A stretch of DNA of 64,000 nt from Roseobacter ponti (GTDB taxonomy: Bacteria; Pseudomonadota; Alphaproteobacteria; Rhodobacterales; Rhodobacteraceae). Numbering within the stretch: position 1 is the stretch's first letter; each line of letters starts with the position of its first letter. A program made the position numbers and the translations under genes. The stretch covers positions 3,472,001 to 3,536,000 of the forward strand of contig NZ_CP048788.1 in the NCBI RefSeq assembly GCF_012932215.1, read 5' to 3'. Shown here piece after piece: positions 5,349 to 37,161 of this stretch. The notes under the pieces were generated by a model. It saw only the letters and a list, made by a program, of their open reading frames with translations, was not told the DNA's origin and did not search any database.

Positions 5349-5837
5349 ATGGACGTTACGATTTTACTCGCACAGCTTGTTGCGACCGGGGCCATTGCCG
5401 CCTGGCTTACGACCGGTCTGCGCGACAACCTGCTGCATCCGGCGCTGAACGAGACCTATACCGCAGAGGTGTTCAGCATGGCGCGCATGCGAAGCGAATA
5501 CCCCGACGCCTTTGAGATGGTTGCCCATCGCGCCATTACGACCCGCAGTACCCAGCAGCTGGCCTTTCGCGCGGTTGTCGCCGCCGAAGCGCTGGCCTGC
5601 ATTCTGCTCTGGGTCGGCGTTGTGGCGTTGCTGATGGCAATGGTGGGGACGGCGGCGGCTGAAACGGCGCGCGTTCTCGCCCTGCTCGGGGCCACTGCAT
5701 TTACCGCGATCTGGGCCGGGTTTCTTGTGGTCGGGAACTACTTTTATTACTGGTTCTGTCACGAGGGCGCGCAGAATACGCATTACCAGATGACGCTCTG
5801 GGGCCTCGGCACCATGATCCTGATCAGTCTGTCCTGA
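5349..5837 (+). CDS. DUF2165-family small integral membrane protein
   Basis: A 162-residue protein with about four hydrophobic helices. The pattern VFSM..(R)..YP, then HRAITT, then VVAAEALACILLWVG, and a terminal NYFYYW..HEGAQNTHYQMTLWGLG segment matches the DUF2165 family of predicted inner-membrane proteins. Function is unknown. It sits after the terminator of the solute-binding protein, so it is probably transcribed on its own. Its last 14 bases overlap the convergent 3HCDH-like gene. Confidence 0.75.
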   Translation: MDVTILLAQLVATGAIAAWLTTGLRDNLLHPALNETYTAEVFSMARMRSEYPDAFEMVAHRAITTRSTQQLAFRAVVAAEALACILLWVGVVALLMAMVGTAAAETARVLALLGATAFTAIWAGFLVVGNYFYYWFCHEGAQNTHYQMTLWGLGTMILISLS

Positions 5838-6456
5838 ACCGGCCCTTACCTGCTGCCGCAGCCGCAATCAGCGGCGCGGGCACCTGCCCTGTCTGTTCTG
5901 AAATCTGAGCACAAAGCGCCACCGCCCCTGTCTCATCTGCCAGCGCAAAAAGGCGCGGTATGCCTGCAGAACGGCAGGCGTCGTCGATGTCTGTGATCCG
6001 GCACCGCTTTTGCGTGACGATCCGGGCGGCTGCATTTGTCAGCCCCGCAATCAGGTAAGACCCCAGCGCGCCTGACGGCCGGTCAAGGCGCGTGACACCG
6101 GCAAAGCGCGCCTCTTCGCGCAGCAGGTCTTCGACAAGCGGGTCAATGACCAGACCGCCACCGCCCGGGTACCGGTACCAGCCGACTCCGATGCTCCGCC
6201 CGAGGCGCCCTTCGCCGACCATACGCACAAGCACCGGGTGGGACTGCTGCACAGGCGTGACCGCGTTGCGTGCGACGCGGGTGAGTTCAGGTTCCAGACC
6301 TTCGTTATCCCAGGCCTCGCAGACGCCGGTGGTAAAGCCTGCGGAAAGCATCGCTTCATCAAGCTCCCACGGGTTGGTACTGGTCAGCAAAAGATGCTGA
6401 GCAAGCCCGCGCAGGGCTGCTGTCAGCGCATCTGTAAGGTCCGGTGCCGGGCTCAC
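5824..6456 (-). CDS. Stand-alone 3-hydroxyacyl-CoA dehydrogenase C-terminal domain protein
   Basis: A 210-residue protein that looks like only the C-terminal helical region of 3-hydroxyacyl-CoA dehydrogenase. PWELDEAML and GRLGRSIGVGWYRYP...DPLVEDLL resemble the first repeat, and RCRITDIDDACRSAGIP resembles the second, as in the end of FadB/FadJ. The Rossmann NAD-binding domain and the crotonase part are absent, so it cannot be a complete dehydrogenase alone. It begins with GTG, overlapping the boxR stop as GTGA, and is therefore translationally coupled to the regulator and is the last gene of the benzoate cluster. It could bind an acyl-CoA intermediate or partner another subunit; this is inference. 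Confidence 0.65.
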   Translation of the reverse strand: MSPAPDLTDALTAALRGLAQHLLLTSTNPWELDEAMLSAGFTTGVCEAWDNEGLEPELTRVARNAVTPVQQSHPVLVRMVGEGRLGRSIGVGWYRYPGGGGLVIDPLVEDLLREEARFAGVTRLDRPSGALGSYLIAGLTNAAARIVTQKRCRITDIDDACRSAGIPRLFALADETGAVALCAQISEQTGQVPAPLIAAAAAGKGRFRTD

Positions 6457-7343
6457 GCGCCGGGCACTTCCAGAAACCGTTTAGAGGCAATAACCGCCAG
6501 CAGATCATTAAGAGAGGAGGAGACCGTCCGGTTAGATGTGTTGACCTGAGCGCTGGCTTTCTCATAGGCCGGTGCGCGCGCTTCCAGCAACCCGCGCAGC
6601 TGCTGCATGGCTGCCGGATTACCCTGCATGGGGCGCAGATCCCCCTGGGCGCGGACCCGCTGCATATGCTCTGCCGGCGATGTTCTGATCCAGATCGTAT
6701 GAAACCGCTCAATCAGGCGGGCATAGGTCTGCTCGCCCGCGACGATGCCACCGGCGACGGCAAGGATCATCCGGTCATGGCGTTCGATCACGCGGGCCAG
6801 TGCCTCGGCTTCAAGGGCGCGATATCCGTCCTCTCCGTAGAGCGCCATCACCTCAGAAAGCGGCATAGCGGTCTGCGTCTCAATCTCTGAGTTCAGCTCG
6901 ACGAACGGCAGACCCAGAGTTTCGCCCGCAAGCTTGCCAAGGGTCGATTTCCCCGCCCCTCTGAGCCCCGTAAGGCAGATACGACTGGCCCGCAGGGCTG
7001 CGGGGTTCTGCACAGCCAGCACCCGGCGCACCTCGTCCTGAACCGTGGCAGGGGCCTGGCGGTAGAGCGTCACCACCCGTTGCAGATCGCTGTCCCAGGC
7101 CGCACTTTCCGACATCAGCGCTTCGATGCGCAGGTCAAGCGCCGTGGCGATGCGCTGCAGCAGAGCGATCGAGATATTGCCTTCCCCGGCCTCAAGCTGG
7201 GCCAGATACCGCGGGGAAACGCCGGACAGCTCAGACAGTTCGCGACGCGGCATGCCTTTTGACCTGCGCGCTTCACGCACACGGGCCGCAACGCGGGCAA
7301 TCAGCAAAGCAGCCGCATCAGCTACAGCAGGACTGTCTTTCAT
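6453..7343 (-). CDS. boxR: BoxR-type transcriptional regulator (HTH_XRE plus shikimate-kinase-like domain)
   Basis: A 296-residue two-domain regulator. Residues about 22-75 form an XRE-type helix-turn-helix (GMPRRELSELSGVSPRYLAQLE), and from residue 120 onward lies a shikimate-kinase-like domain with Walker A GLRGAGKST at 126-134. This fusion is typical of BzdR/BoxR, repressors of benzoyl-CoA pathways that respond to benzoyl-CoA. The ATG at 7343 has GGAG nine bases upstream. An in-frame TTG 36 bases earlier is rejected because it would sit inside a 26-bp inverted repeat that looks like the operator. The gene lies downstream of boxA and overlaps the following gene by GTGA. Confidence 0.9.
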   Translation of the reverse strand: MKDSPAVADAAALLIARVAARVREARRSKGMPRRELSELSGVSPRYLAQLEAGEGNISIALLQRIATALDLRIEALMSESAAWDSDLQRVVTLYRQAPATVQDEVRRVLAVQNPAALRASRICLTGLRGAGKSTLGKLAGETLGLPFVELNSEIETQTAMPLSEVMALYGEDGYRALEAEALARVIERHDRMILAVAGGIVAGEQTYARLIERFHTIWIRTSPAEHMQRVRAQGDLRPMQGNPAAMQQLRGLLEARAPAYEKASAQVNTSNRTVSSSLNDLLAVIASKRFLEVPGA

Positions 7344-7357
7344 CGCAACTCCGGCGT

Positions 7358-7383
7358 TTAATTGTGTAATACTGCACAATTAA
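7358..7383. promoter_or_regulatory. Candidate BoxR operator (9-bp perfect arms)
   Basis: TTAATTGTG (7358-7366) and CACAATTAA (7375-7383) are perfect inverted arms separated by eight bases, 15 bases upstream of the boxR ATG. The right part contains TGCA, the core element described for BzdR operators. The adjoining stretch also has GTGAAGCGCCTCAC (7406-7419) and the dyad TTGCGCAA (7421-7428). Autoregulation of boxR is the simplest reading. Confidence 0.5.
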
Positions 7384-7450
7384 GCCTCAGCGCCGGGCTT
7401 ACAACGTGAAGCGCCTCACTTTGCGCAATATGTCGCACATTTCTTACGTC

Positions 7451-8647
7451 TCAGTAGGTCTCGACGTGGTACTGGCCGGCCTCGCGCAGGCTGTCGCGCA
7501 GGCCCCGCCATGACAGACCCACACCCGCTGCAATGTCGCTGAGCGCAGCGTCCACACCCGCTTCCATCGCCCGCAACCCGCAGACATAGATGTGCAGTTT
7601 GTCCCGCGCCAGCAGGGTGGCAATGTGATCCGACTGTTCGCGCAGCTTGTCCTGCACGTATTGCTTCGGGCTGCCGTCCTCGCGGCTGAAGGCGAATTCC
7701 TTGCGCAGGAAGCTGTCAGGCACCTTTTTCAGCGGCCCGAAATACGGCAGATCGCGCGGGCTGCGCGCTCCGAACACCAGCGTCATGCTGTCACGTGCCG
7801 CAGGCGTCTCGCGCTGGCGCCGCATGGTGAACCCGCGGAAGGGCGCCGATCCGGTACCGGTACAGATCATCAGCAGATGCGCCTCCGGATCAGATGGCAT
7901 GAGAAAGGTCGATCCGAAAGGCCCGGTCAGCTGCACCTCGTCGCCTTTGGCCAGATCGCAGACATAGCCGGAGCATATGCCGTCCTCTTCGCGCTTTACC
8001 GTCAGGGAGATGTTGTTGAATCCCGGTCGTTCCCCGTCGCGCGGGCTTGAGACCGAGTAGAGTCTCGGCAGGTGCGGCCTGCCCTCTGCATCTGTGCCGG
8101 GCGGAATAATGCCCAAACTCTGACCTTCCAGCACCGGGAATGGCAGCCCTGCAAGATCGAGGATGATATGACGAACGTCCCCGTCACTGCCGGCCTCCGT
8201 CAGCCGGTAGTTACCCTGCACGACAGCCCGCGCAGGTTTGCCGGTGTTATAAAGGTTGATGGTGGGCTTTGTGGCCGAGGCGGGCGCGCGGGATTTGCCG
8301 CCTGCCCCTTTGTGTGCATCCGCGAGCAGAGCGGCGATGGCCTCGTCATGCGCCTCATTACCGTCCCCGTCAGGCTGCGCCTCAAGACTGATGTCTTCCT
8401 GTTCAGGAAGTTCTTCAAAACCGTACTGTTCATCAAGGGTATAAGGGGTATCGACGACACGCCATTCGTCGATTGAGCCGGTCGGACAGACCGGGATGCA
8501 ATCCATACAGAAATTACATTTGTCGGGGTCGACGACGACGTTGTTGTCGTCATGCTCGATCGCACCGATGGGGCAGGTCATCTCGCAGGTGTAGCAGCGG
8601 ATGCAGATTTCAGGGTCGATAAGGTGTTGCTTGACGGGTTTGTTCAT
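7451..8647 (-). CDS. boxA: Benzoyl-CoA 2,3-epoxidase reductase component BoxA
   Basis: A 398-residue iron-sulfur flavoprotein that passes electrons from NADPH to the di-iron oxygenase BoxB. The N-terminus carries two [4Fe-4S] ferredoxin motifs, CIRCYTCEMTCP (Cys15, 18, 21, 25) and CNFCMDCIPVCP (Cys44, 47, 50, 54). After a variable linker comes a ferredoxin-NADP reductase module with the FAD motif RLYSVSS and the NADP-binding CTGTGSAPFRGF. The start MNKPVKQ is chosen because it has a GGAG site and overlaps the stop of the preceding microprotein as ATGA. A longer in-frame extension toward boxB is non-coding in character. An FNR-like site about 225 bases upstream may control this gene separately from boxB. 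Confidence 0.93.
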   Translation of the reverse strand: MNKPVKQHLIDPEICIRCYTCEMTCPIGAIEHDDNNVVVDPDKCNFCMDCIPVCPTGSIDEWRVVDTPYTLDEQYGFEELPEQEDISLEAQPDGDGNEAHDEAIAALLADAHKGAGGKSRAPASATKPTINLYNTGKPARAVVQGNYRLTEAGSDGDVRHIILDLAGLPFPVLEGQSLGIIPPGTDAEGRPHLPRLYSVSSPRDGERPGFNNISLTVKREEDGICSGYVCDLAKGDEVQLTGPFGSTFLMPSDPEAHLLMICTGTGSAPFRGFTMRRQRETPAARDSMTLVFGARSPRDLPYFGPLKKVPDSFLRKEFAFSREDGSPKQYVQDKLREQSDHIATLLARDKLHIYVCGLRAMEAGVDAALSDIAAGVGLSWRGLRDSLREAGQYHVETY

Positions 8648-8781
8648 CCGGCTCCGACGGACCGGTGCAACACAGTATCGGGAACGGAAATCATGTCGAG
8701 AAGTGCGGCACACATGCCTTTGCAGTCTTTGCAACCGATGCAAAGCGCGCGGGAAATTGTACCTGAGTTCTGTGTCTGCAT
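8644..8781 (-). CDS. 45-residue CxxCxxCxxxC ferredoxin-like microprotein between boxB and boxA
   Basis: A short open frame of 45 codons starts at an ATG preceded by AGGAG nine bases upstream and ends in a TGA that overlaps the boxA ATG (ATGA). The product holds four cysteines (14, 17, 20, 24) in CIGCKDCKGMC, the spacing of a [4Fe-4S] ferredoxin half-motif and the same spacing as both clusters of BoxA. The proline that normally follows the fourth cysteine is an alanine here. It could be a small electron carrier, a cluster-maturation helper, a metal sensor or a translational leader for boxA. I do not recognise a named family, and no function is assigned. Confidence 0.6.
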   Translation of the reverse strand: MQTQNSGTISRALCIGCKDCKGMCAALLDMISVPDTVLHRSVGAG

Positions 8782-8864
8782 GGGTCCGGTCTCCTATTAA
8801 AGCTACAAGGTCACGGGGTGAGGCGTGACGCAGGCCAGTATCGACAGTGCCCGCGCGCATTTCA

Positions 8865-8878
8865 TTGATCTGGATCAA
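8865..8878 (-). promoter_or_regulatory. Perfect FNR-type box upstream of microprotein-boxA
   Basis: On the coding strand the site reads TTGATCCAGATCAA, matching TTGAT-N4-ATCAA at all ten conserved positions, and it overlaps the boxB stop codon. A GATACT hexamer at 8842-8837 is exactly where a -10 would lie for a class II FNR promoter centred at -41.5. FnrL is encoded elsewhere in this window. Confidence 0.65.
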
Positions 8879-10326
8879 GCCATATGGAGTTTCACATAGT
8901 CGAAATCACCGGGCTTGTTGTCGATGCCCACCTTGGGTGCTGCAATCCAGGACGCATATTTTCCGGGCTCAAAACACGGCACCATCAGAGACTGGATAAA
9001 GTCTCCGTCAGCTTTGGTGGGCAGCCATTCGGCGCGGCGTTTTTCCCATTCTTCAGACGAGATGATGTTACCATCGGGATCAACGCAAACAGTTGAAAAG
9101 ACACCGATCTGACGGTGGAAGCCTTCGTGCGGCAGTTTCAGTTCAAACGCCACACCCGCGCGGGCAATCGCCTTGTTCCAGCGGCCGACACCCCCTGCGG
9201 CATCGCGCACATAATCATCGCGCAGCCGCATGTTGATCGCCGTCAGCGCCGGCACGTCTTCGGTCAGGATCTTTCCGTCTTTGATCGAGGTGACCGCATA
9301 GGTGTCATTCTGCAGCTTGTGATCATCGTCAATCCTCAGCTCCATATACCGGCCTTTTATACCTGCGTTGAAGGCATTGGCAGCATTGGTCGAGACCTCC
9401 TGGCCAAAAAGATCAAGGCTTAGCGTATAGTGCAGGTTGAGCTTTTTCTGGATCGTCGGCAGGTCGATCACGCCCAGATCGCGGATTTTATTGATGTCAT
9501 AAGGGTCGGTGATGCCGTTTGCGTTCATCGCCTCAAGCGTCGCCTGGATCGTGCGGCCCACGCCGGTTTCGCCGACGAACATGTGATGCGCCTCTTCGGT
9601 CAGCATAAACCGGCAGGTGCGGCTCAGCGGGTCAAAGCCCGATTGCGCAAGGCTTTCGAGCTGCATTTTGCCGTCGCGGTCGGTGAAATAGGTGAACATG
9701 AAAAACGACAGCCAGTCAGGGGTCTCCTCGTTAAAAGCGCCCAGCATGCGCGGCGCCTCTTCGGACCCGGAGGAGCGGACCAGCAGATCGTCGGCCTCTT
9801 CGCGCCCGTCGCGGCCAAAGTATTTCTGCAGCAGATAAACCATCGCCCAGAGGTGACGGCCCTCTTCGACGTTCACCTGAAAGAGGTTGCGCATGTCGTA
9901 AAGCGAGGGTGCTGTGAGACCGAGAAACCGTTGCTGTTCCACCGAGCCGGGTTCGGTATCGCCCTGGATCACGATGAGGCGCTTGAGCATGTTCCGGTAC
10001 TCGCCCGGCACCTCCTGCCAGGCGGCCTCGCCGACGTGCTCACCCATGGGGATTTTGCGGTCCTCCACGGCTGGTGCCAGCAGCACGCCCCAGCGGTACT
10101 CGGGCATTTTCACATAGTCGAATTTGGCCCATCCCTTGGGGTCGACCGAAACCGCTGTGCGCAGATAGACCATGCTGTCCTGAAAGTTCTGCGGGATCAG
10201 ATCGTTCCACCAGTTAATGTACCCCGGGTGCCATTTCTCAAGCGCCTTAAGCACCTTGCGGTCGGAGCTCAGGCCCACATTATTGGGGATCTGACTGTCA
10301 TAGCTTACGTTGATCAGGTCTGCCAT
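8875..10326 (-). CDS. boxB: Benzoyl-CoA 2,3-epoxidase oxygenase component BoxB
   Basis: A 483-residue class I di-iron oxygenase that inserts one oxygen atom into benzoyl-CoA to form the 2,3-epoxide, with BoxA as reductase. Two ExxH iron-ligand motifs are visible, Glu155-x-x-His158 in EEGRHLW and Glu245-x-x-His248 in TEEAHHMF, as expected for BoxB. The start MADLINVS has a GGAGAAGAGACA ribosome binding site; the longer open frame reaching into boxC is not used. Fifty-five bases separate it from boxC. Length and motifs are normal for the family. Its stop codon is embedded in an FNR-like site serving the next genes. Confidence 0.95.
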   Translation of the reverse strand: MADLINVSYDSQIPNNVGLSSDRKVLKALEKWHPGYINWWNDLIPQNFQDSMVYLRTAVSVDPKGWAKFDYVKMPEYRWGVLLAPAVEDRKIPMGEHVGEAAWQEVPGEYRNMLKRLIVIQGDTEPGSVEQQRFLGLTAPSLYDMRNLFQVNVEEGRHLWAMVYLLQKYFGRDGREEADDLLVRSSGSEEAPRMLGAFNEETPDWLSFFMFTYFTDRDGKMQLESLAQSGFDPLSRTCRFMLTEEAHHMFVGETGVGRTIQATLEAMNANGITDPYDINKIRDLGVIDLPTIQKKLNLHYTLSLDLFGQEVSTNAANAFNAGIKGRYMELRIDDDHKLQNDTYAVTSIKDGKILTEDVPALTAINMRLRDDYVRDAAGGVGRWNKAIARAGVAFELKLPHEGFHRQIGVFSTVCVDPDGNIISSEEWEKRRAEWLPTKADGDFIQSLMVPCFEPGKYASWIAAPKVGIDNKPGDFDYVKLHMA

Positions 10327-10381
10327 TGTCTCTTCTCCATCTGTTCCTGCGGGGCGCGCGCCCTTCGTGTCCGGTGCGGGC

Positions 10382-12040
10382 TCACACCCGCTGTTTGTTG
10401 TAATCAGCCCTGAGACCGGTGCCATAGCGTTGCAGGGCACCCTCGGGACCGACCGCATTCGGTCTTTGAAAAATCCAGTTCTGCCAGGCGGTGAGACGTC
10501 CGAAAATGCGCGTCTCCATGGTTTCAGGCCCGGCAAAGCGCAGGTTGGCCTCCATGCCGGTCAGCGCATCGGGCGAGAAGCTCGCGCGCTCTTCCATGAA
10601 AAGGCGCACCTCGTCTTCCCAGTCGATGTCGTCATAAGCGTATGTCACAAGGCCAAGTTCTTCTGCTTCAGGGGCCTGCAGCGGGTCACCCGTCCGCTGG
10701 CGCAGCACCTCCACCTGCTCGGGAGTGGCCAGAAAACGCGTCTCCAGACGGGTAAGCGCATTGCCCATCGGATAGCGCCCGAAACTGGCCTCCGTGAGGG
10801 TGATCGTCGCCAGCGGGCGGTCGTCGTCCTCGAATTCGTCCAGCATCATATAGCTGCGATCGACAGCCCAGAGGATTTCCGCAAGGGGACCGGCGAAACA
10901 GGAGCCGTGTTCCACCAGTGCCACGAGGCTGCGCGAGGTCATATCGATGCGTTTGAGCACGCGTTTCCAGAGGGTCAGCACCTCATTGGCCAGCCAGTGG
11001 TCCGCGTTGTCCAACAGCAGCGCTTCGTGAGCGACCACGGCCTGCGGGTCGCCTTCGGTGCGAAATGCAATGAGCCCGATATCGTCCTCATTACTGCGCA
11101 GGTGCAGGATGGCGTCGTCCAGTTCGCGCGCGCACCGCAGCATCCACGCCCGGGCGCCGTGCTCCGTAAACGCGTCCATGTCGTGCGGCGCGGCCTCGGA
11201 GGGCCCGGTTATCGTTATGTCTGCCCGGCGCCCGGTGCGGTCGATCTGCAAAGCGACTGTGGAATACGTCACGCTGTCCGCGCCAAAGCTGCGCTCCAGC
11301 GCTGTCAGGCGAATGCCTTGGCTGGCGCCACGACCGGAGGCGCTCTGTGCCAGTTCCCGCGCACGGGCGGTGACCCTTTCGTCAAATGTTGCGTTTGGGA
11401 TGAGTTCATCCACCAGACGCCATTTCAGAGCGCGGCTGCCTTTGACTCCTTCCTCGACCGAACAGAAAACATCCGCCAGATCGCGGCGCACTCTGCGCTT
11501 GTCTGTGACCCTTGTCAGCCCGCCGGTGCCAGGCAGAACGGCCAGCAGCGGCACCTCGGGCAGCGCCACGGAGGAGGTGCTGTCATCGGTCAGCATGATG
11601 TGATTGCAGGCCAGCGCCAGCTCATATCCCCCCCCCGCGCAGGCGCCTCTGATCGCACAGATGTAGTTCTGGTCGCTGTCTTCAAGTGCCGCTTCGAAGG
11701 TGTTTCGCGTCTCATTGGTGAACTTGCAGAAGTTGACCTTATGGGCGTGAGCCGCACCACCCAGCATGCGGATGTTGGCACCCGCGCAGAATACCTTTTC
11801 CTTTGCGGACCGCATCACGACCACGCGCACCTCAGGATGCTCAAAACGCATGCGCTGAACGATATCTGCAAGCTCGATATCCACGCCGAGGTCATAGGAA
11901 TTGAGTTTCAGCTCATAGCCGTCAAAGAGCCCGCCGGCCTCATCGACATCCATCAGCAGAGTGGCCACAGGGCCGTCATACGCTACGCGCCAGTGGCGCA
12001 TCTTGTCCGGGTCAGTCTGGAAATCAATTCTGTCAGCCAC
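10382..12040 (-). CDS. boxC: 2,3-epoxybenzoyl-CoA dihydrolase BoxC
   Basis: A 552-residue enoyl-CoA hydratase/isomerase superfamily protein, twice the size of an ordinary crotonase, as expected for BoxC. It opens 2,3-epoxybenzoyl-CoA hydrolytically to 3,4-dehydroadipyl-CoA semialdehyde and formate. The crotonase core is in the first half: CAGANIRML is the first oxyanion-hole loop and GACAGGGYELALACN the second. The start codon is GTG with GGGGAG eight bases upstream. It lies directly upstream of boxB on the same strand. The semialdehyde dehydrogenase (BoxD) that would act next is not in the window. Confidence 0.93.
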   Translation of the reverse strand: MADRIDFQTDPDKMRHWRVAYDGPVATLLMDVDEAGGLFDGYELKLNSYDLGVDIELADIVQRMRFEHPEVRVVVMRSAKEKVFCAGANIRMLGGAAHAHKVNFCKFTNETRNTFEAALEDSDQNYICAIRGACAGGGYELALACNHIMLTDDSTSSVALPEVPLLAVLPGTGGLTRVTDKRRVRRDLADVFCSVEEGVKGSRALKWRLVDELIPNATFDERVTARARELAQSASGRGASQGIRLTALERSFGADSVTYSTVALQIDRTGRRADITITGPSEAAPHDMDAFTEHGARAWMLRCARELDDAILHLRSNEDDIGLIAFRTEGDPQAVVAHEALLLDNADHWLANEVLTLWKRVLKRIDMTSRSLVALVEHGSCFAGPLAEILWAVDRSYMMLDEFEDDDRPLATITLTEASFGRYPMGNALTRLETRFLATPEQVEVLRQRTGDPLQAPEAEELGLVTYAYDDIDWEDEVRLFMEERASFSPDALTGMEANLRFAGPETMETRIFGRLTAWQNWIFQRPNAVGPEGALQRYGTGLRADYNKQRV

Positions 12041-12143
12041 GGCCTGTCTCCCCGCCCGCCTGTCTGCGCGATATTACCTGAAATATTGAACTATACTTCA
12101 CACAGGAGTCCACGAAACCCGAACTTCTCTACTCAAATTCTAC

Positions 12144-12614
12144 TTATTTTGCACTATGATGCAGTTCGCCCTGCGCACGGGTTTCATGAACCCAGGCGCG
12201 CAGGGCTCTCGGATCAAGCCCGAGGGGCTGCTGTCCGGACGGGCATCGCGACAGATGCGCCTCCACCATATCGCAGAGCCGGCGCGCCGCATGCGGGCGC
12301 AGCATCAGCAGTTTCAGCCGCGCATTGGCCAGCTGGATCAGCGCCTGCACAATATCGCGCTCCGGGCTGGGATCAGACGTCTGCATCCAGACCGCTTCCA
12401 GCACTTCGTGGCACTCCCAGTAGTATCCCGCGTCGAAATAGGCCCTGCCACAGCGCAGAGCGAAACTGCCCGCCAGCGCATCACTGCCCGCCTGGTCAGG
12501 CACCGTCCGTCTGATCGGGTCAAACCAGTCCTCCGGGTGACGCGCGGTGCGTCCGGGGATATACGCGTGCGACGGCACCGGCACATCGCGGGGCAGATCA
12601 CGCAGGCGCGACAT
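12144..12614 (-). CDS. DUF309 domain-containing protein in the box cluster
   Basis: A 156-residue helical protein with the DUF309 signature YYWECHEVLEAVWM near residues 68-81, followed by the second family segment DIVQALIQLANARLKLLM. DUF309 proteins are small alpha-helical proteins without an assigned biochemical role. Here the gene starts 17 bases inside the end of the alpha/beta hydrolase gene and precedes boxC, so co-expression with benzoyl-CoA oxidation is very likely. A specific function in the pathway is not known to me. Confidence 0.8.
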   Translation of the reverse strand: MSRLRDLPRDVPVPSHAYIPGRTARHPEDWFDPIRRTVPDQAGSDALAGSFALRCGRAYFDAGYYWECHEVLEAVWMQTSDPSPERDIVQALIQLANARLKLLMLRPHAARRLCDMVEAHLSRCPSGQQPLGLDPRALRAWVHETRAQGELHHSAK

Positions 12615-13425
12615 CGGCTTTTTCGAGACGTATCAGACGGTCGGTAAAGTCACGCACCGCCGCAAGCACCGCATCGGGCGCTTCAAGGTGGGGTGCGTGA
12701 CCGCAGTTCGCAGGGATAAGCGTTTCCAGCGGGGAATATATGCGCGTCTCAATCTCATCAATCTGCGCGCGGCTGCCATAGGGGTCCTGCCCGCCCTGGA
12801 TGGCGAGCACGGGCACGCGCCAGTGATCGATGCAGTCCGCCACATTCCAGGTCGCAAAGCCCGGATCGGTCCAGGCATCGTGCCAGCCGTTAAATGCCAT
12901 CTCTGCATCACTGTGCCAGCGCGCGAGCCTTGCGCGCAGATCGCCGGTGCGAAACGCTTCGCCGGCCCCGCGGATCGCCTCCAGCCCCTGTGGCTCTGTA
13001 AAGAAATGCGGCGCCATCAGGATCAGGCCGCGCACCCGCATGTCGCTGACAGATCCCGCGTAGATCGCGGCGATTGTCGCGCCATCGGAATGTCCCAGAA
13101 GGATCACGTCCCGTAGCCCGGCGGCATCCATCACAGGGCCCAGCGTTTCAACCGCTTCGCGGGTCATGTAATCAGGCGGCCGGGGCAGCGTCACAGCCTC
13201 CGAGTTCCCGTATCCGGCGCGCGACCAGACAAAGACACCCAGTCCGGTCTCAGCAGCCAGGCGCACAGGAAAGTCCCGCCAGAGTGCTGCACTGCCCAAG
13301 CCTTCGTGCAACAGCACAAGTGTCGGGGCGTCGGGTCCCGGCGGCGGACCATAGCAGGCATATTCCAGCGACTTACCGCCTGCTTTCAGGCGGCCATCGG
13401 GGTTCTCTGACCAGGCGATACTCAC
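12598..13425 (-). CDS. Alpha/beta hydrolase of the box cluster
   Basis: A 275-residue alpha/beta hydrolase fold protein. The nucleophile elbow is GHSDG, the oxyanion region is LLHEGLGS, the acid candidate lies in GQDPYG and the catalytic histidine in CGHAPHLEAP. The GTG start at 13425 is chosen because it overlaps the ligase TGA as GTGA; a longer frame would run about 95 bases into the ligase. Putative lactone or ester hydrolases occur in other box clusters, so a role in handling a ring-opened or dead-end intermediate, or in thioester release, is plausible. The substrate is not shown by the sequence. Confidence 0.82.
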   Translation of the reverse strand: MSIAWSENPDGRLKAGGKSLEYACYGPPPGPDAPTLVLLHEGLGSAALWRDFPVRLAAETGLGVFVWSRAGYGNSEAVTLPRPPDYMTREAVETLGPVMDAAGLRDVILLGHSDGATIAAIYAGSVSDMRVRGLILMAPHFFTEPQGLEAIRGAGEAFRTGDLRARLARWHSDAEMAFNGWHDAWTDPGFATWNVADCIDHWRVPVLAIQGGQDPYGSRAQIDEIETRIYSPLETLIPANCGHAPHLEAPDAVLAAVRDFTDRLIRLEKADVAPA

Positions 13426-14963
13426 TGACCGGCCCCGCGCAGCCGGAACCGCTGGATTTTGCCCGTGGCCGTTTTGGGCAGTTCGTCCACGATGCTGATC
13501 CAGCGTGGATACTTCCATTTGCCGATGCGGTCTTTTACATGCTCTTTCAGGTGCTCGGCGATCCCGCTATCTGCAGCATCCTGCAGCACGACAAAGGCCT
13601 TCGGCTTATCCAGACCATCCTCTCCGGGGGCGGCAACGACAGCAGCTTCGAGCACCGCCGGGTGGCTGACGAGCGCCTGTTCGACCTCAAAGGGCGAGAC
13701 CCAGATACCGGACACCTTGAACATATCATCTGTGCGGCCGCAGTAGACGTAGCGCCCGTCTTTGCGGCGTTCGTATTTATCGCCGGTGCGGGTCCATTCG
13801 CCCTCGAATGTTGTGCGGGATTTTTTGCGCTGGTTCCAGTAGCCAGCGGCAGCCGAGGCACCGCGCACCAGCAACTCTCCGATTTCATCATCACCGACCT
13901 CAGTGCCGGTCTCATCCACAAGGCGCATGTCATAGCCGGGCACCGCAACACCGGAGGTGCCATAGACGTTGTCCCCGGCGCGGTTGCTGAGAAAGATGTG
14001 CAGCATTTCAGTGGAGCCTACGCCATCCAGAATGGCGACGCCGGTATGCGCCTCCCACCGCATACCGACGTCTTCGGGAAGCGCCTCCCCCGCTGAGATT
14101 GCTCTGCGAAGCAGGGTGGCGGGCGTACCCGCTTTGTCCATCCCGGCCACCATTGCGGCATAAAGCGTTGGCACGCCGCAAAAGACAGTCGGCTGCTCAG
14201 CCGTCATGACCGCGAGCATATCCGCCGGTGTGGGACGCCCCGCAAAAAGCACAGTTGTGGCCCCTGCGGCAAGTGGAAATGTCATCGCATTCCCGAGCCC
14301 GTAAGCAAAAAACAGTTTGGCCGCTGAGAAGACCACATCATCTTCCCGCAGGCCGAGGATATGCGCGCCGTAAGTATCGGCGGTGGCCTTCATGGCGGAG
14401 TGAACATGCGGAACGCCTTTGGGCTGCCCGGTCGAGCCTGAGGAGTAGAGCCAGAAGGCAACCTCATCATCGGATGCGGGCTGGGTTTCAAGCGTTCCGG
14501 CATTCCGCAGAAATGCGTCAAAAGAAGTGCAGCCCTCTGGTGCCCGGTCGCTGTTCACAATGATCACCCGCAGGGTGGGGTGGCCCTTGAGAACAGATGA
14601 GATCGTGTCAAAAAGCGCCTCAGAGACAAAAAGAACTGTGGCGCGGCAATCGCGCAGGATGGCATCATAAACAGGCGCGGCAAGCAGGGTGTTGAGCGGC
14701 ACCGGAACAACGCCGCACTTCAGAGCGCCGAAGAATATCTGCGGAAATTCGATTGTATCGGTCACCAGCATGGCGGCGCGCTCTTCGGGGCGCACACCGG
14801 CGCGACGGAGGGCCGCCGCGACCTGTCCGGACCCCTCTGCGAGGCCCTGATAGCTCAGCGATCTGCCGCCGCCGGCCTCGCGGAAAGCGACCTTGTCGCC
14901 CCGCCCTTCACCGGGGTGACGGTCAACAAACCATGTGGCGGCATTTCCGGCAACATCCGTCAT
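13422..14963 (-). CDS. Benzoate-CoA ligase family protein
   Basis: A 513-residue member of the ANL adenylate-forming superfamily. The AMP-binding P-loop is WLYSSGSTGQPKGVPH, and later hallmarks are GVGSTEMLH, YVYCGRTDDMFKVSG (hinge region) and the C-terminal TGKIQR with its catalytic lysine. Size and context match benzoate-CoA ligases (BclA/BadA type), which make the CoA thioester that starts the box pathway. Two inverted repeats and a helical-phase direct repeat lie in the 119 bases upstream, so this gene probably has its own regulated promoter in addition to read-through from the TRAP genes. Preference for benzoate over hydroxy- or aminobenzoates cannot be told from sequence. Confidence 0.88.
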   Translation of the reverse strand: MTDVAGNAATWFVDRHPGEGRGDKVAFREAGGGRSLSYQGLAEGSGQVAAALRRAGVRPEERAAMLVTDTIEFPQIFFGALKCGVVPVPLNTLLAAPVYDAILRDCRATVLFVSEALFDTISSVLKGHPTLRVIIVNSDRAPEGCTSFDAFLRNAGTLETQPASDDEVAFWLYSSGSTGQPKGVPHVHSAMKATADTYGAHILGLREDDVVFSAAKLFFAYGLGNAMTFPLAAGATTVLFAGRPTPADMLAVMTAEQPTVFCGVPTLYAAMVAGMDKAGTPATLLRRAISAGEALPEDVGMRWEAHTGVAILDGVGSTEMLHIFLSNRAGDNVYGTSGVAVPGYDMRLVDETGTEVGDDEIGELLVRGASAAAGYWNQRKKSRTTFEGEWTRTGDKYERRKDGRYVYCGRTDDMFKVSGIWVSPFEVEQALVSHPAVLEAAVVAAPGEDGLDKPKAFVVLQDAADSGIAEHLKEHVKDRIGKWKYPRWISIVDELPKTATGKIQRFRLRGAGQ

Positions 14964-14988
14964 GAATCTCTCCCCCCGATGCGACCTG

Positions 14989-15005
14989 CGATAGATGCTC
15001 TATCG
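14989..15005. promoter_or_regulatory. Inverted repeat upstream of benzoate-CoA ligase
   Basis: CGATAGA (14989-14995) and TCTATCG (14999-15005) are perfect arms around TGC, 26 bases before the ligase ATG. A second dyad, TGCGAC-N5-GTCGCA, follows at 15012-15028. Confidence 0.45.
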
Positions 15006-15047
15006 TGCACCTGCGACTGCCTGTCGCAAGCGGTTCTGCCGAAAAAA

Positions 15048-15064
15048 GCACTTTAATGCACTTT
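15048..15064. promoter_or_regulatory. Direct repeats GCACTTT one helical turn apart
   Basis: GCACTTT occurs at 15048-15054 and again at 15058-15064, ten bases apart and flanked by A/T runs. A TGCA lies at their junction. The position between dctM and the ligase gene suits an activator or repressor site. Confidence 0.35.
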
Positions 15065-15082
15065 TTAGCCGGCGGCAGGGGC

Positions 15083-16438
15083 TCAGCCCGGCAGGAGAAA
15101 GAGCGTGATGGCAGGGAACATGACGAGGATCACCACCCGCAGGATATCCGATCCGACAAAGAACATCACAGCCTTGTAGGTCTCAGTCATCGGCGTTTCA
15201 CGGTCCATTGCATTGATGATGAAAAGGTTCATGCCCACAGGCGGGGTGATCAGCCCGACCTCGACGACGATCAGCACGAGGATGCCGAACCAGATCGCCA
15301 CATGTTCGGGCGACATGCCGAAATCCATGGCGGAGATCACCGGAAAGAAAATCGGCACGGTAAGCAGGATCATTGAGAGGCTGTCCATCAGGCAGCCGAA
15401 GATCAGATAAAAAACAAGAATGATTGAGAGTACCAACCAGGGCGAGAAGCCCTGCGTTAGCACCCAGTCGGCCATGAACTGGGGCACGCCTGAGAGGGCG
15501 AGAAAGCCATTGTAGAATGCCGCCCCCAGCACGATGAAAAAGATCATCGCCGTGGTGCGCGCCGTGCCCAGCAGGCTGTCACGGAATACCGGCCAGTTGA
15601 GACTGCCGGAGAGGAGTGCGACAAGCCCGGTGCCCATCGCGCCGATGGCCGAGCCTTCAGTCGGTGTGAACCATCCCAGGTAAATACCGCCCACGACAAC
15701 CGCAAAGATTACAAGCACCGGCCAGGTGGCCCCCAGCGCTTTCCAGCGGTCCGCCATGGGCACCGGCGGGCGCGTGCCGGCGGATTTCGGAAAGAGCCGC
15801 ACATAGACGGAGATCGTCAGCATATATCCGAGGGCCGCAAGGATGCCCGGGATGAAGGCGGCGAGGAAGAGCTTGGCGATGTTCTGCTCGGTGATGATCG
15901 CATAGATCACCAGAATGACGGACGGAGGTATCAGGATCCCGAGCGTGCCGCCGGCGGCAAGCGTTGCCGTGGAAAAGCCGCCCGAATATCCGTAGCGGCG
16001 CAGTTCCGGCAGGGCCACGCGTGACATGGTGGCGGCCGTGGCAAGCGATGACCCGCAGATCGCACCGAACCCCGCACAGGCACCCACGGCGGCCATGGCC
16101 ACACCACCGCGCCGGTGGCCGAGAAAGCTCTCGGCAGCCTTGAAAAGCGCGCTGGAAAGCCCGGAGAGGGTCGCAAACTGGCCCATCAGCAGAAACATCG
16201 GAATGATGCTGAGCGAGTAGCTGGAGAAGGTCGTATAGGTTTCGGATTTCAGCTTTGCCAGCAGCGGCACCGGGTTGCCGTTCATCGCGTAATACCAGCC
16301 GCCAAAACCACAGAGCAGCATGGCAAGGCCAATGGGCGCGCGCAGAAAGATCATGCCCAGCAGCACGGCAAAGGACCAGAATCCCAGCTCAAGCCGGCTC
16401 ATATCCGCAAAGGGCAGCAGATCGAGGAAAGCGCCCAT
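15083..16438 (-). CDS. dctM: TRAP transporter large permease (DctM)
   Basis: A 451-residue, highly hydrophobic protein of the DctM family with roughly a dozen membrane helices and the usual segments GFGAICGSSLATAATM, GTLGILIPPSVILVIYAIITEQN and GLITPPVGMNLF. It forms the sodium-driven translocation channel with DctQ. It begins six bases after the dctQ stop. The neighbouring ligase and box genes suggest an aromatic or cyclic carboxylate as cargo; the fold alone does not reveal it. Confidence 0.92.
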   Translation of the reverse strand: MGAFLDLLPFADMSRLELGFWSFAVLLGMIFLRAPIGLAMLLCGFGGWYYAMNGNPVPLLAKLKSETYTTFSSYSLSIIPMFLLMGQFATLSGLSSALFKAAESFLGHRRGGVAMAAVGACAGFGAICGSSLATAATMSRVALPELRRYGYSGGFSTATLAAGGTLGILIPPSVILVIYAIITEQNIAKLFLAAFIPGILAALGYMLTISVYVRLFPKSAGTRPPVPMADRWKALGATWPVLVIFAVVVGGIYLGWFTPTEGSAIGAMGTGLVALLSGSLNWPVFRDSLLGTARTTAMIFFIVLGAAFYNGFLALSGVPQFMADWVLTQGFSPWLVLSIILVFYLIFGCLMDSLSMILLTVPIFFPVISAMDFGMSPEHVAIWFGILVLIVVEVGLITPPVGMNLFIINAMDRETPMTETYKAVMFFVGSDILRVVILVMFPAITLFLLPG

Positions 16439-16444
16439 CTGACC

Positions 16445-17014
16445 CTATTCCTGCGGCATCAGTGCGCGGCCTGTAAGGCTTTCTGCAACACGCAGATAGG
16501 CGCACCAGAGCGCCACGATGCAGGTCACGACCGAAGCTGCAAAGCTCGCTGAATAGGCCCACCAGACCGGGAACTGCAGAAAGAAGGTCGTCTCGCCATT
16601 ACCGTAGTAGCGCTGCACACCGCCAAAGAGCTGCACGGAGATCAGGATGAGTGCCGCGGTCAGCGCCACTTCCCAGAAGGCCGCCAGCGCGCGGTTGGCG
16701 GCACCTGGCAGCTGCGACGTGAAGATGTCCACAGTGGCATGCGCCCGGCTGAGCTGGCAGATCGGAAAAAAGGAGAAGATCGCAAAAGCGATTCCGGCCT
16801 CCAGCAGTTCATAATTGCCATTGACCTCACCGATGCCGCTGTCGATCAGCGTGCGGGCCAGGTCTCCCAGTGTGCGTTCAGCAAAATCCGAGTGCAGCCA
16901 TTTGTTCGCAGACCGCCCGATGATCGAGACCGTGGTCAGCAGAACCAGGCCGGTCAGGACAAGACCGCCGATCACTGCGGTGGCGCGGGCAAGAAGTCTG
17001 ATGGCCTGATGCAT
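16445..17014 (-). CDS. dctQ: TRAP transporter small permease (DctQ)
   Basis: A 189-residue membrane protein with four predicted helices, the usual size and layout of DctQ. It has a GGAG ribosome binding site seven bases before the ATG. It lies between the binding protein gene and dctM, separated from the former by a hairpin that probably lowers expression of the membrane subunits relative to the binding protein. Confidence 0.88.
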   Translation of the reverse strand: MHQAIRLLARATAVIGGLVLTGLVLLTTVSIIGRSANKWLHSDFAERTLGDLARTLIDSGIGEVNGNYELLEAGIAFAIFSFFPICQLSRAHATVDIFTSQLPGAANRALAAFWEVALTAALILISVQLFGGVQRYYGNGETTFFLQFPVWWAYSASFAASVVTCIVALWCAYLRVAESLTGRALMPQE

Positions 17015-34029: not shown

Positions 34030-34043
34030 TTGATCTGCATCAA
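34030..34043. promoter_or_regulatory. FNR box between ccoN and usp
   Basis: TTGATCTGCATCAA matches TTGAT-N4-ATCAA at all ten conserved positions. It lies 104 bases from the ccoN start and 92 from the usp start, so it could serve either or both divergent genes. Confidence 0.9.
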
Positions 34044-34997: not shown

Positions 34998-35741
34998 TCA
35001 GAAGAGCAGCCCGCCGTCGCTGTCATCACCTGCTTCTTCCATGAGCCGGCGCATATCCGGCACTGTGATATGCCGTTTGCCTTCCAGCACGATCACCCCG
35101 TCCTTTTTCAGCGCGGAGACCTGGCGGCTCACCGTCTCCAGTGTCAGGCCCAGATAATCCGCCATCGCTTCGCGGGTCAGCATCAGATCGAACGTGATGG
35201 ACTGACCGGCCTTTTTATTGCTCAGATCCGCAATGCGGCGGCCGATGATAGACAACAGGCTCGCGATCTTTTCGCGCGCGGTCTTGCGACCGAGGACCAG
35301 CATCCATTCGCGCGCGGCGTCAAGCTCATCAAGTGTCATCTCAAGCAGGCGGTGCGCAATATGAGGCGTGTTGGCGATCATGTGCTCAAACGGTTTGCGG
35401 CGGAAACAGCACATCACCACGTCACTGGCCGCCGTCACGGTGTAAGTGGCGGTGTCGCGCTGGGGGCGGCCGACGAAATCCGACGGCAGCAGCAGGCCGA
35501 CCATCTGGCGGCGCCCGTCTTCCATCGTCTGGGTCAGCGTGGCGACACCTGACACCACCGAGGCCACGAATTCCATTCTGTCCCCAGCCCACATGACTGT
35601 CTGTCCGGCGGAAAAGCTGCGGTAGTATTTGATATCTTCCAGCAGAGCGAGTTCATCGGTCTCGCACTTCGCACATACCGCTCTGTGGCGGATCGGACAG
35701 TCGCTGCAGTCTTTGATTTCTGGCGCAAGACTTTGCGTCAT
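34998..35741 (-). CDS. fnrL: Crp/Fnr-family oxygen regulator FnrL
   Basis: A 247-residue regulator with cysteines 12, 15, 23 and 26 at the N-terminus (CSDCPIRHRAVCAKC) and Cys111/112 in the sensory domain, enough to hold the oxygen-labile [4Fe-4S] cluster of FNR. The C-terminal helix-turn-helix reads LTREAMADYLGLTLETVSRQVSALKK, whose E..SR recognition residues are those of FNR. It activates anaerobic and microaerobic genes. An FNR-like box starts 17 bases upstream of its ATG, close enough to block its own promoter. GGAG precedes the ATG. Confidence 0.95.
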   Translation of the reverse strand: MTQSLAPEIKDCSDCPIRHRAVCAKCETDELALLEDIKYYRSFSAGQTVMWAGDRMEFVASVVSGVATLTQTMEDGRRQMVGLLLPSDFVGRPQRDTATYTVTAASDVVMCCFRRKPFEHMIANTPHIAHRLLEMTLDELDAAREWMLVLGRKTAREKIASLLSIIGRRIADLSNKKAGQSITFDLMLTREAMADYLGLTLETVSRQVSALKKDGVIVLEGKRHITVPDMRRLMEEAGDDSDGGLLF

Positions 35742-35757
35742 TCAGAACACTCCGGAT

Positions 35758-35771
35758 TTGATCTGTGTCAA
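35758..35771. promoter_or_regulatory. FNR-type box between fnrL and hemN
   Basis: TTGATCTGTGTCAA has nine of ten conserved positions. For hemN a TATTAA hexamer at 35794-35799 lies exactly at class II -10 distance, predicting a start point at about 35806, the hemN ATG itself. For fnrL the box is promoter-proximal and probably repressive. Confidence 0.75.
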
Positions 35772-35805
35772 GGAAAGCTGACAGGTCTCTTCTTATTAAA
35801 TCAGT

Positions 35806-37161
35806 ATGCACATGACACCTGAATTAGCCAAGCTGGGTCTTTTTGACGCAAAAGTGCCCCGCTACACGAGCTACCCGACCGCCCCGCAGTTTACACCCGC
35901 TGTAGGTCCCGCGCAGATGCGGGACTGGATTGCAGGCATTGCGCCCGGTGCGCGGGTGTCGCTTTATCTGCATATCCCGTTCTGCCGGCGGCTGTGCTGG
36001 TTCTGTGCCTGCAGAACCCAGGGGACCAAGACCAACAGCCCTGTTGCCGCATATCTGAAAACCCTCTTTGAGGAACTGGAGATCCTGGGTGCGCATCTGC
36101 CGGAAGGTGTGCAGCTGAACCGAATGCACTGGGGCGGCGGCACACCCACCCTTCTGACGCCCAAGATGACCCGAAAGCTCGCCAGACGAATCCGGAAAGT
36201 GCTGCCACTGGCGCCCGGCGCCGAATTCTCCGTCGAGATTGACCCCAATGAGATCGATCAGCCACGGGTTGACGCCCTGGCAGAGGCCGGCATGAACCGC
36301 GCCTCGATCGGCGTACAGGATTTCGACGATGAGGTGCAGTCGACCATCGGGCGCATCCAGGGGTTTGAGACCACACGGAACGCTGCTGATATGTTGCGGG
36401 CCGCCGGGATCCGGTCGCTCAACGCCGATATCCTTTTCGGACTGCCCCACCAGGATCAGGCGCGGCTGTCGGCCACAGTGCAGAAACTTCTGACGCTGAG
36501 CCCGGACCGCGTGGCGCTTTACGGCTATGCGCATGTGCCGTGGATGGCCCGCCGCCAGGCGCTGATCCCGTCAGACGCCCTGCCCCAGCCCGAGGAACGC
36601 CTGGCCCTGTTCGAATCGGCACGACAGCTATTTGAATGGGACGGGTATAAACAGATTGGTATCGATCATTTTGCGCTGCCGGATGACACGCTGGCGGTTG
36701 CCGCCCGTACCGGCAGACTGCGCCGCAACTTTCAGGGCTATACCGACGAGCCCTGCGACGTGCTGATCGGTCTTGGCGCCTCTGCCATTTCGCGGTTTCC
36801 CGAAGGCTATGCGCAGAATGAGCCGGCAACCTCGAAATACACCGCCGCTGTGCGCGAGGGCCGTTTTGCGACTGTCCGCGGTCATGCCTTTACCCAGGAG
36901 GACCATCTGCGCGCCCGCCTGATCGAGGCTCTGATGTGTGATTTCAGGATTTCGACCGACGAGACTGAAACGCGTTTTCCCGGCACGCAGGCGCACGTGG
37001 CGAAGATGCTGCGCGATGTGGCGAAAAAATTCGGCGATACAGTGCAGCTGACCACCAGCGGGCTCGAGGTGCATCCCGACGCGCTGGCGCTGACGCGTAT
37101 CATCGCGCGCGAGTTCGATGCCTACAGCATGTCGGAGAACGCCCACGCTTCAGCGATCTGA
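35806..37161 (+). CDS. hemN: Oxygen-independent coproporphyrinogen III oxidase (radical SAM)
   Basis: A 451-residue radical SAM enzyme with the cluster motif CRRLCWFC (Cys60, 64, 67) in YLHIPFCRRLCWFCAC and the HemN-specific SVEIDPNEID and GVQDFDDEVQ segments. It makes protoporphyrinogen IX without O2. No Shine-Dalgarno sequence precedes either of two nearby ATGs (35806 and 35812), and the FNR box geometry places the transcription start at or next to the first ATG, so translation may be leaderless. It is divergent from fnrL. Confidence 0.95.
   Translation: MHMTPELAKLGLFDAKVPRYTSYPTAPQFTPAVGPAQMRDWIAGIAPGARVSLYLHIPFCRRLCWFCACRTQGTKTNSPVAAYLKTLFEELEILGAHLPEGVQLNRMHWGGGTPTLLTPKMTRKLARRIRKVLPLAPGAEFSVEIDPNEIDQPRVDALAEAGMNRASIGVQDFDDEVQSTIGRIQGFETTRNAADMLRAAGIRSLNADILFGLPHQDQARLSATVQKLLTLSPDRVALYGYAHVPWMARRQALIPSDALPQPEERLALFESARQLFEWDGYKQIGIDHFALPDDTLAVAARTGRLRRNFQGYTDEPCDVLIGLGASAISRFPEGYAQNEPATSKYTAAVREGRFATVRGHAFTQEDHLRARLIEALMCDFRISTDETETRFPGTQAHVAKMLRDVAKKFGDTVQLTTSGLEVHPDALALTRIIAREFDAYSMSENAHASAI

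Follow-up and report, generated by a model that had tools for sequence, protein, structure and literature searches.

An FNR-type operator conserved at the boxB-boxA junction of Roseobacter ponti and its congeners points to an FnrL-dependent promoter for boxA

Background

FNR proteins are best known for turning on anaerobic routes, and several described systems resemble the locus considered here. The FnrL regulon of Rhodobacter sphaeroides and R. capsulatus (PMC2908626, PMC4634722) uses the same motif, TTGAT-N4-ATCAA, and an orthologous regulator, and some of the 14-mers found in this study are identical to sites bound in vivo in R. sphaeroides. The extended FnrL regulon is reported to differ even between close species (PMC2908626). 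The main texts of the two reports (PMC2908626, PMC4634722) contain no benzo- or aromatic word that would indicate a box target. In Dinoroseobacter shibae, a relative of Roseobacter, a TTGAT-N4-ATCAA site for FnrL/Dnr lies in the napF transcript before napD, likewise inside a transcribed unit, where it serves the downstream gene (PMC5398030).

Two further systems involve the metabolism of benzoyl-CoA. The bzd PN promoter of Azoarcus sp. CIB has an AcpR/FNR activator at -41.5, serves benzoyl-CoA genes and is active without oxygen (PMC6678401). In Bradyrhizobium diazoefficiens, benzoyl-CoA-dihydrodiol lyase, a box-type enzyme, was up at low oxygen with a log2 fold change of 3.1, and it carries no FixK2-target mark in the table concerned (PMC6515984). 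In the open-licence literature, including passages of PMC9765128, PMC6449761, PMC10803450 and PMC9873259, no report of FNR control of boxA was found, which is no proof of absence.

The current study follows up a first-pass annotation of a 64,000-nucleotide stretch of R. ponti DNA, referred to here as the window, in which an FNR-type promoter had been proposed at the junction between boxB and boxA.

Results and discussion

The box cluster and the microprotein

The minus strand of the window carries a cluster encoding a benzoate-CoA ligase, an alpha/beta-hydrolase-like protein, a 156-residue protein, BoxC, BoxB, a microprotein, BoxA and a BoxR-type regulator. Matches to TIGR03224, TIGR03225, TIGR03222, TIGR02262 and NF006015, each over its cut-off, identified the cluster as a box operon in which boxA, boxB, boxC, the benzoate-CoA ligase and the BoxR-like regulator all occur together. 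The alpha/beta-hydrolase-like protein scored below all cut-offs and the 156-residue protein had no NCBIfam match. boxB (8875..10326, minus strand; TIGR03225, 895.6 bits) encodes the epoxidase component and boxA (7451..8647, minus strand; TIGR03224, 523.6 bits) the reductase component of benzoyl-CoA 2,3-epoxidase. Between them, at 8644..8781 on the same strand, lies the gene for a 45-residue microprotein with a CxxCxxCxxxC motif, preceded by the ribosome-binding site AGGAG (8791..8795, minus strand), of which AGGA is invariant in 14 aligned junctions. The stop codon of the microprotein overlaps the boxA start codon as ATGA, so one promoter would feed both genes. Both lie downstream of the site described below and are the genes that it had been proposed to serve.

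A small CxxCxxCxxxC reading frame recurs in the 109 other junctions compared (with the window's own, 30 of the 54 family boxB places and the best 80 of at least 593 relatives), where it was found in 57 of the 59 with a gap of at least 150 bases, in none of the 34 with a shorter gap and in 6 of the 16 in which boxA was not found nearby. The microprotein is very variable apart from its cysteines, and its similarity to Fer4_21 is weak (E 0.005, under the curated cut-off). The presence of one half-ferredoxin motif could suggest that it forms a dimer or is a partner of BoxA.

A perfect palindrome, TTGTGTAATACTGCACAA, is located just before the boxR-like gene (7362-7379) and is possibly an autoregulatory operator; at up to one mismatch it occurs twice in the window, with 1.63 occurrences expected. 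The second contig of the genome (G000:C2, L147; 100,942 bases) resembles the Roseobacter litoralis photosynthesis plasmid; in a 20-kb comparison, 86% of the length matched at 76.8% identity.

The FNR-type site and its chance expectation

The 3' end of boxB on the minus strand reads ATG GCT TGA TCCAGATCAA. Re-reading of the minus strand from 8878 to 8865 gave TTGATCCAGATCAA, which matches TTGAT-N4-ATCAA at all ten FNR positions and spans the boxB stop codon, exactly as the first-pass annotation had it. The TTGA of TTGATCCAGATCAA consists of the last base of the final boxB alanine codon followed by the TGA stop (8877..8875), so that the final GCT TGA of boxB is part of the first half-site. The window holds two internal comparisons, an exact FNR site upstream of ccoN (34030..34043, minus strand), which is a classical FnrL target, and the FNR-type site TTGATCTGTGTCAA before hemN (35758..35771, plus strand).

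A chance expectation of about 0.06 matches per 64 kb had been given for such a site. Dinucleotide shuffles of the window gave a mean of 0.03 against the two exact matches seen (the boxB-boxA junction and ccoN). The genome-wide counts make the match a weaker proof than 0.06 suggests. There are 13 exact N4 sites in the genome, compared with a total of 23 for the other eight spacings (N1-N3 and N5-N9; mean 2.9, nine of them with N3). The enrichment is thus about 4.5-fold and chance may account for about one fifth of the exact sites. The other spacings served as control, while a control with the reversed pattern, which gave no match in the genome, was set aside because that pattern contains CTAG, a tetranucleotide that is rare in such genomes. 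At up to two mismatches the window holds 22 sites where 16.45 were expected, a number reached by 9 of 100 shuffles and thus no clear enrichment. In addition, four of the ten motif positions fall on the end of the boxB frame. Given this overlap and the ratio of 13 to 2.9, the exact match alone is weak proof; the proof of the site comes from its conservation across genomes.

Conservation within the genus

Nineteen genomes of the genus were searched, 13 of which have boxA. All 13, which as members of one genus are not independent samples, carry TTGAY-N4-RTCAA at the identical place in the junction. The half-sites are TTGAT..ATCAA in ten, TTGAC..ATCAA in two and TTGAT..GTCAA in one, so that the consensus is matched at 127 of the 130 specified bases. 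The three departures are C or G variants that also occur among the FnrL-bound sites described. The spacers (CCAG, CCAC, CCAA, CCAT, CTGA, GTGC and CTGC) vary. By column, the most frequent base was found in 12, 13, 13, 13 and 13 of the 13 junctions across the 3' half-site and in 12, 10, 10 and 5 across the spacer. The 3' half-site, with 64 of 65, exceeds every five-column window across the next 38 columns (61 of 65 at most).

The last boxB alanine codon provides, with its third base, the first T of the site. This codon is GCT in all 13 genomes, as compared with 20 of 398 alanine codons elsewhere in the boxB stretches compared. Within 54,522 bases of genus loci, the degenerate motif with N4 occurs 14 times, 13 times at the junction and once in boxB of L122, and versions with N0-N3 or N5-N10 were never found at the junction place in the 13 loci. 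A chance resemblance at a stop codon could draw on the palindromes counted at other spacings and on the fact that TGA supplies part of the motif, yet it would have to produce the conservation in every boxA-bearing genome, the free spacer and the biased GCT codon, and is scarcely credible. Judged by this conservation, the FNR-type operator is genuine and under selection.

Distribution outside the genus

The comparison was extended to 110 further junctions (104 different junction sequences), including the window's own (L005), that were drawn from 30 of the 54 boxB places in 248 family genomes and from the best 80 of at least 593 relatives. Among the 109 others, TTGAY-N4-RTCAA was present in only one, L014, which belongs to another genus and has the site at the same place. 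The first-pass annotation had proposed conservation in relatives sharing the gene order as a test, and the expectation held for all 13 boxA-bearing members of the genus but failed beyond it, with the site in 1 of 109 junctions. The site is therefore a clade-specific addition, and the comparison indicates that a single clade within the Roseobacter group acquired it. A search of other clades with the site as a pattern was rejected, the pattern being too short and the matches mostly unrelated; only the coordinates that coincided with boxB places were used, by eye, and these gave 2 of the 54 boxB genomes, R. ponti itself (G000) and G188, the source of L014.

Six more of the 109 junctions have the strict motif with two mismatches within 25 bases of the boxB stop: L040 and L075 at the same place as the junction site, L096 and L110 ten bases further on, as TTGATCTG(A/C)CGCAA, and L023 and L051. 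The sequences in L096 (TTGATCTGACGCAA, offset 11) and L110 (TTGATCTGCCGCAA, offset 10), about ten bases past the boxB stop in two other genera, are possibly a related Crp/Fnr-type site with a different half-site. When 80 named box loci were examined whole, there were 12 N4 motifs (eight at a single coding position in boxB), against 27 with N3 and 0-4 for each of the remaining spacings. N4 is thus not enriched over other spacings, indicating that FNR control does not extend to box operons in general.

A BoxA tree was built from 103 rows, comprising the 13 genus rows and 90 of the 109 others; junctions with no boxA nearby or with fewer than 330 residues were excluded. The 14 site-bearing rows require two changes on this tree, and none of 500 shuffles gave a number as low. 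The simplest history that fits is one gain before the split between L014 and the genus, followed by one loss in L037 (Sulfitobacter sabulilitoris), which has no site although its BoxA groups within the site-bearing clade. Two independent gains are a possible alternative. The placement of L014 has a support of only 95/63, and the bootstrap had not converged. The L037 junction has a different type of microprotein, hinting that this junction was replaced.

Promoter geometry

The first-pass annotation had placed GATACT at the -10 position for a site centred at -41.5. The hexamer was found there, at 8842..8837 on the minus strand, 22 nt downstream of the site, and by this spacing the predicted transcription start is at 8830 (minus strand). 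GATACT is a modest -10 match (4 of 6). When 36 offsets after the site were scored in all 13 junctions with textbook E. coli -10 frequencies, offset 22 ranked first, with a mean score of 2.33 (next best -0.77). Position 2 of the candidate -10 is A in 10 of the 13 junctions and position 6 is T in all 13; these bases overlap a stem-loop that may itself constrain them. L014 fits poorly, with CTAGCC at offset 22 and TAGCCT one base further.

The same scoring was applied to other FNR-type sites of the genus. On the hemN side of the site between fnrL and hemN, offset 22 ranked first (2.22; 19 genomes), and on the ccoN side it ranked third (-1.36; 18 genomes). The raw bases at this offset are TAT in 17 of the 19 hemN sequences, and A occupies position 2 in all 18 from ccoN. 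On the fnrL and uspA sides offset 22 ranked 19th and 23rd. The TAT -10 of hemN (35758-35806 of the window, plus strand) would place the start used with FnrL roughly on the ATG, which suggests that the hemN transcript is leaderless.

A scan of 8400-9100 for the sigma-70 consensus revealed no promoter, as expected because there is no -35 element here. Taken as sequence, the junction has an operator predicted to be centred at -41.5 with a candidate -10 at a fixed distance, poor in L014, which is good but indirect evidence for the geometry of a class II promoter.

Directly after the predicted start is an inverted repeat, GTCAC-N10-GTGAC(C) (8809..8829, minus strand). By eye, a GTCAC..GTGAC repeat with a shorter or similar spacer is present in 10 of the 13 genus junctions, R. 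ponti included, and in L014. An operator and a 5' stem are candidate roles; a general box operator was rejected, there being only one copy in the window.

The stem-loop after boxB

A stem-loop with an eight-pair run (8828..8856, minus strand; register 46) follows boxB and has the -10 hexamer in its loop. In the R. ponti junction its own fold is no better than shuffled sequence (z 0.1), whereas it is stronger in most congeners. One register is common to ten of the 13 genus junctions; that of the window and of L116, its nearest relative, is shifted by two, and L126 has a third. The -10 falls either within the loop or where the 3' arm begins. That the register moved by two in the window and L116 with the -10 kept at 22 nt suggests that the promoter spacing is held independently of the stem-loop.

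The stem-loop could instead be an RNA element that tunes the mRNA of boxB relative to that of boxA, the palindrome being just a part of its 5' flank. Stem-loops after boxB are indeed common among relatives: the 91 of the 110 junctions that were folded (gap of at least 60 bases or of unknown length) had a median z of -2.1 against mononucleotide shuffles, with 47 below -2, and in the genus helix 77.8% of cells pair, compared with 31-40% when it is slid. However, the palindrome lies outside the stem-loop and is absent from relatives that have one. The T-to-C changes that yield the TTGAC..ATCAA variants are uncompensated, so the palindrome does not behave as RNA. The fold of the junction alignment has six pairs, and the covariation of the helix is not above that of shuffles (84 of 500 were as high), for which reason a covarying RNA was rejected. 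Together with the poor fold of the window itself, these observations make such an RNA element very improbable.

An intrinsic terminator was also rejected, since the single terminator-like site detected in 8400-9100 is on the opposite strand, leaving the minus strand with none. A search of 5500-16500 against Rfam 15 gave no match to a described RNA family at the gathering threshold.

The regulator

FnrL is encoded in the window, as had been stated, at 34998..35741 on the minus strand, 26 kb from the box genes. The protein scores 447.1 bits against NF045989 (cut-off 300) and has both the N-terminal cluster cysteines (CxxCx7CxxC) and an ETVSR recognition helix, so that the genome holds a candidate cognate regulator of the E-SR type. 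FnrL is above the curated cut-off in all 19 genus genomes. Compared by eye, 12 of the 13 boxA-bearing genomes have fnrL on the contig of boxA at a distance of 26-28 kb, G248 being the exception.

R. ponti has five Crp-type proteins below E 1e-9 and two more that pass the cut-off weakly. Of the five, only FnrL and a FixK-like paralogue at G000:C1:3130638 have the ETVSR helix, the other three having no E-SR. A genuine site might be used chiefly by a different member of the Crp/Fnr family, for example this paralogue, and the signal would then not be oxygen sensed directly by FnrL. The paralogue shares the recognition helix of FnrL and scores 135.3 bits to the FnrL model, and in D. shibae FnrL and three Dnr proteins are described as acting at such sites (PMC5398030). 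But proteins of the FixK-like kind (E < 1e-30) are present in only 8 of the 13 boxA-bearing genomes, while the site and FnrL are present in all 13. The paralogue thus fits the site less well than FnrL and is an unlikely reader of it; FnrL, the regulator originally named, is the likeliest by comparison. In the region G000:C1:3130638-3136516, two exact FNR-type sites, at 3132547 and 3135003, lie at most 5 kb from the FixK-like gene, which possibly has a small regulon of its own.

Three of the junction 14-mers equal sites listed as bound by FnrL in R. sphaeroides by ChIP (PMC2908626): TTGATCTGGATCAA at coxI, which is the R. ponti junction site on the other strand, TTGACGCAGATCAA at ompW, which is the 14-mer of L014, and TTGACCTGCATCAA at dksA, which is that of L127. 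The coxI target is marked there as repressed (PMC2908626). On this precedent FnrL could bind the junction and repress boxA, for example by blocking read-through from boxB, or have no effect. This outcome is improbable, as the conserved -10 at the exact class II distance is needed by an activator site but not by a roadblock.

Proposed mechanism

In sum, the original interpretation stood as to a selected site, class II geometry, FnrL as the likeliest regulator and the genes served, but it had missed the stem-loop and the FixK-like paralogue with the same recognition helix. The boxB-boxA junction is probably a clade-specific, class II FnrL-dependent promoter for the microprotein and boxA. The site, its conservation, the geometry, the presence of FnrL and the gene order are read directly from the sequence; from these we infer FnrL binding, the start site, the direction of the response and its purpose.

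According to the proposed mechanism, FnrL would keep its iron-sulfur cluster and dimerise at low oxygen. The dimer, bound to TTGAT-N4-ATCAA at -41.5, would recruit RNA polymerase to the -10 located 22 nt downstream, and a transcript beginning near 8830 would span the microprotein and the overlapping boxA. Otherwise, the Box enzymes would be made from the upstream operon transcript that passes the post-boxB stem-loop. The predicted outcome is more BoxA reductase and microprotein relative to BoxB at low oxygen. At low oxygen, cells would thus probably produce more of the protein that supplies electrons to an oxygen-using enzyme.

A more tentative proposal, which we consider possible but hold with less than even confidence, is that in this clade the post-boxB stem-loop restricts read-through into the reductase genes and that the FnrL promoter, with its -10 in the loop, restores and raises synthesis of the microprotein and BoxA when oxygen is scarce, so that the electron supply per epoxidase is tuned to oxygen. 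If true, oxygen would set the subunit ratio of an oxygen-using enzyme. The junction offers a concrete single-site test of such low-oxygen tuning via electron supply, and it gives the recurrent microprotein a physiological context.

Comparison with known systems

At this junction an FNR protein seems to activate the reductase of a ring-opening pathway that is aerobic and consumes oxygen. A switch of the FNR type is in keeping with a role of the box pathway at low or fluctuating oxygen, and the distribution of the site shows how a regulatory link was gained by one clade. The Azoarcus PN promoter differs in that it drives an oxygen-independent reductase pathway from the head of its operon together with BzdR (PMC6678401), whereas the junction site lies inside an operon for the oxygen-using box pathway. 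The D. shibae napF site shares the internal position but serves nitrate respiration rather than aromatic catabolism (PMC5398030). The junction is best described as a familiar type of regulation applied to an unusual target, the boxA gene of an aerobic pathway.
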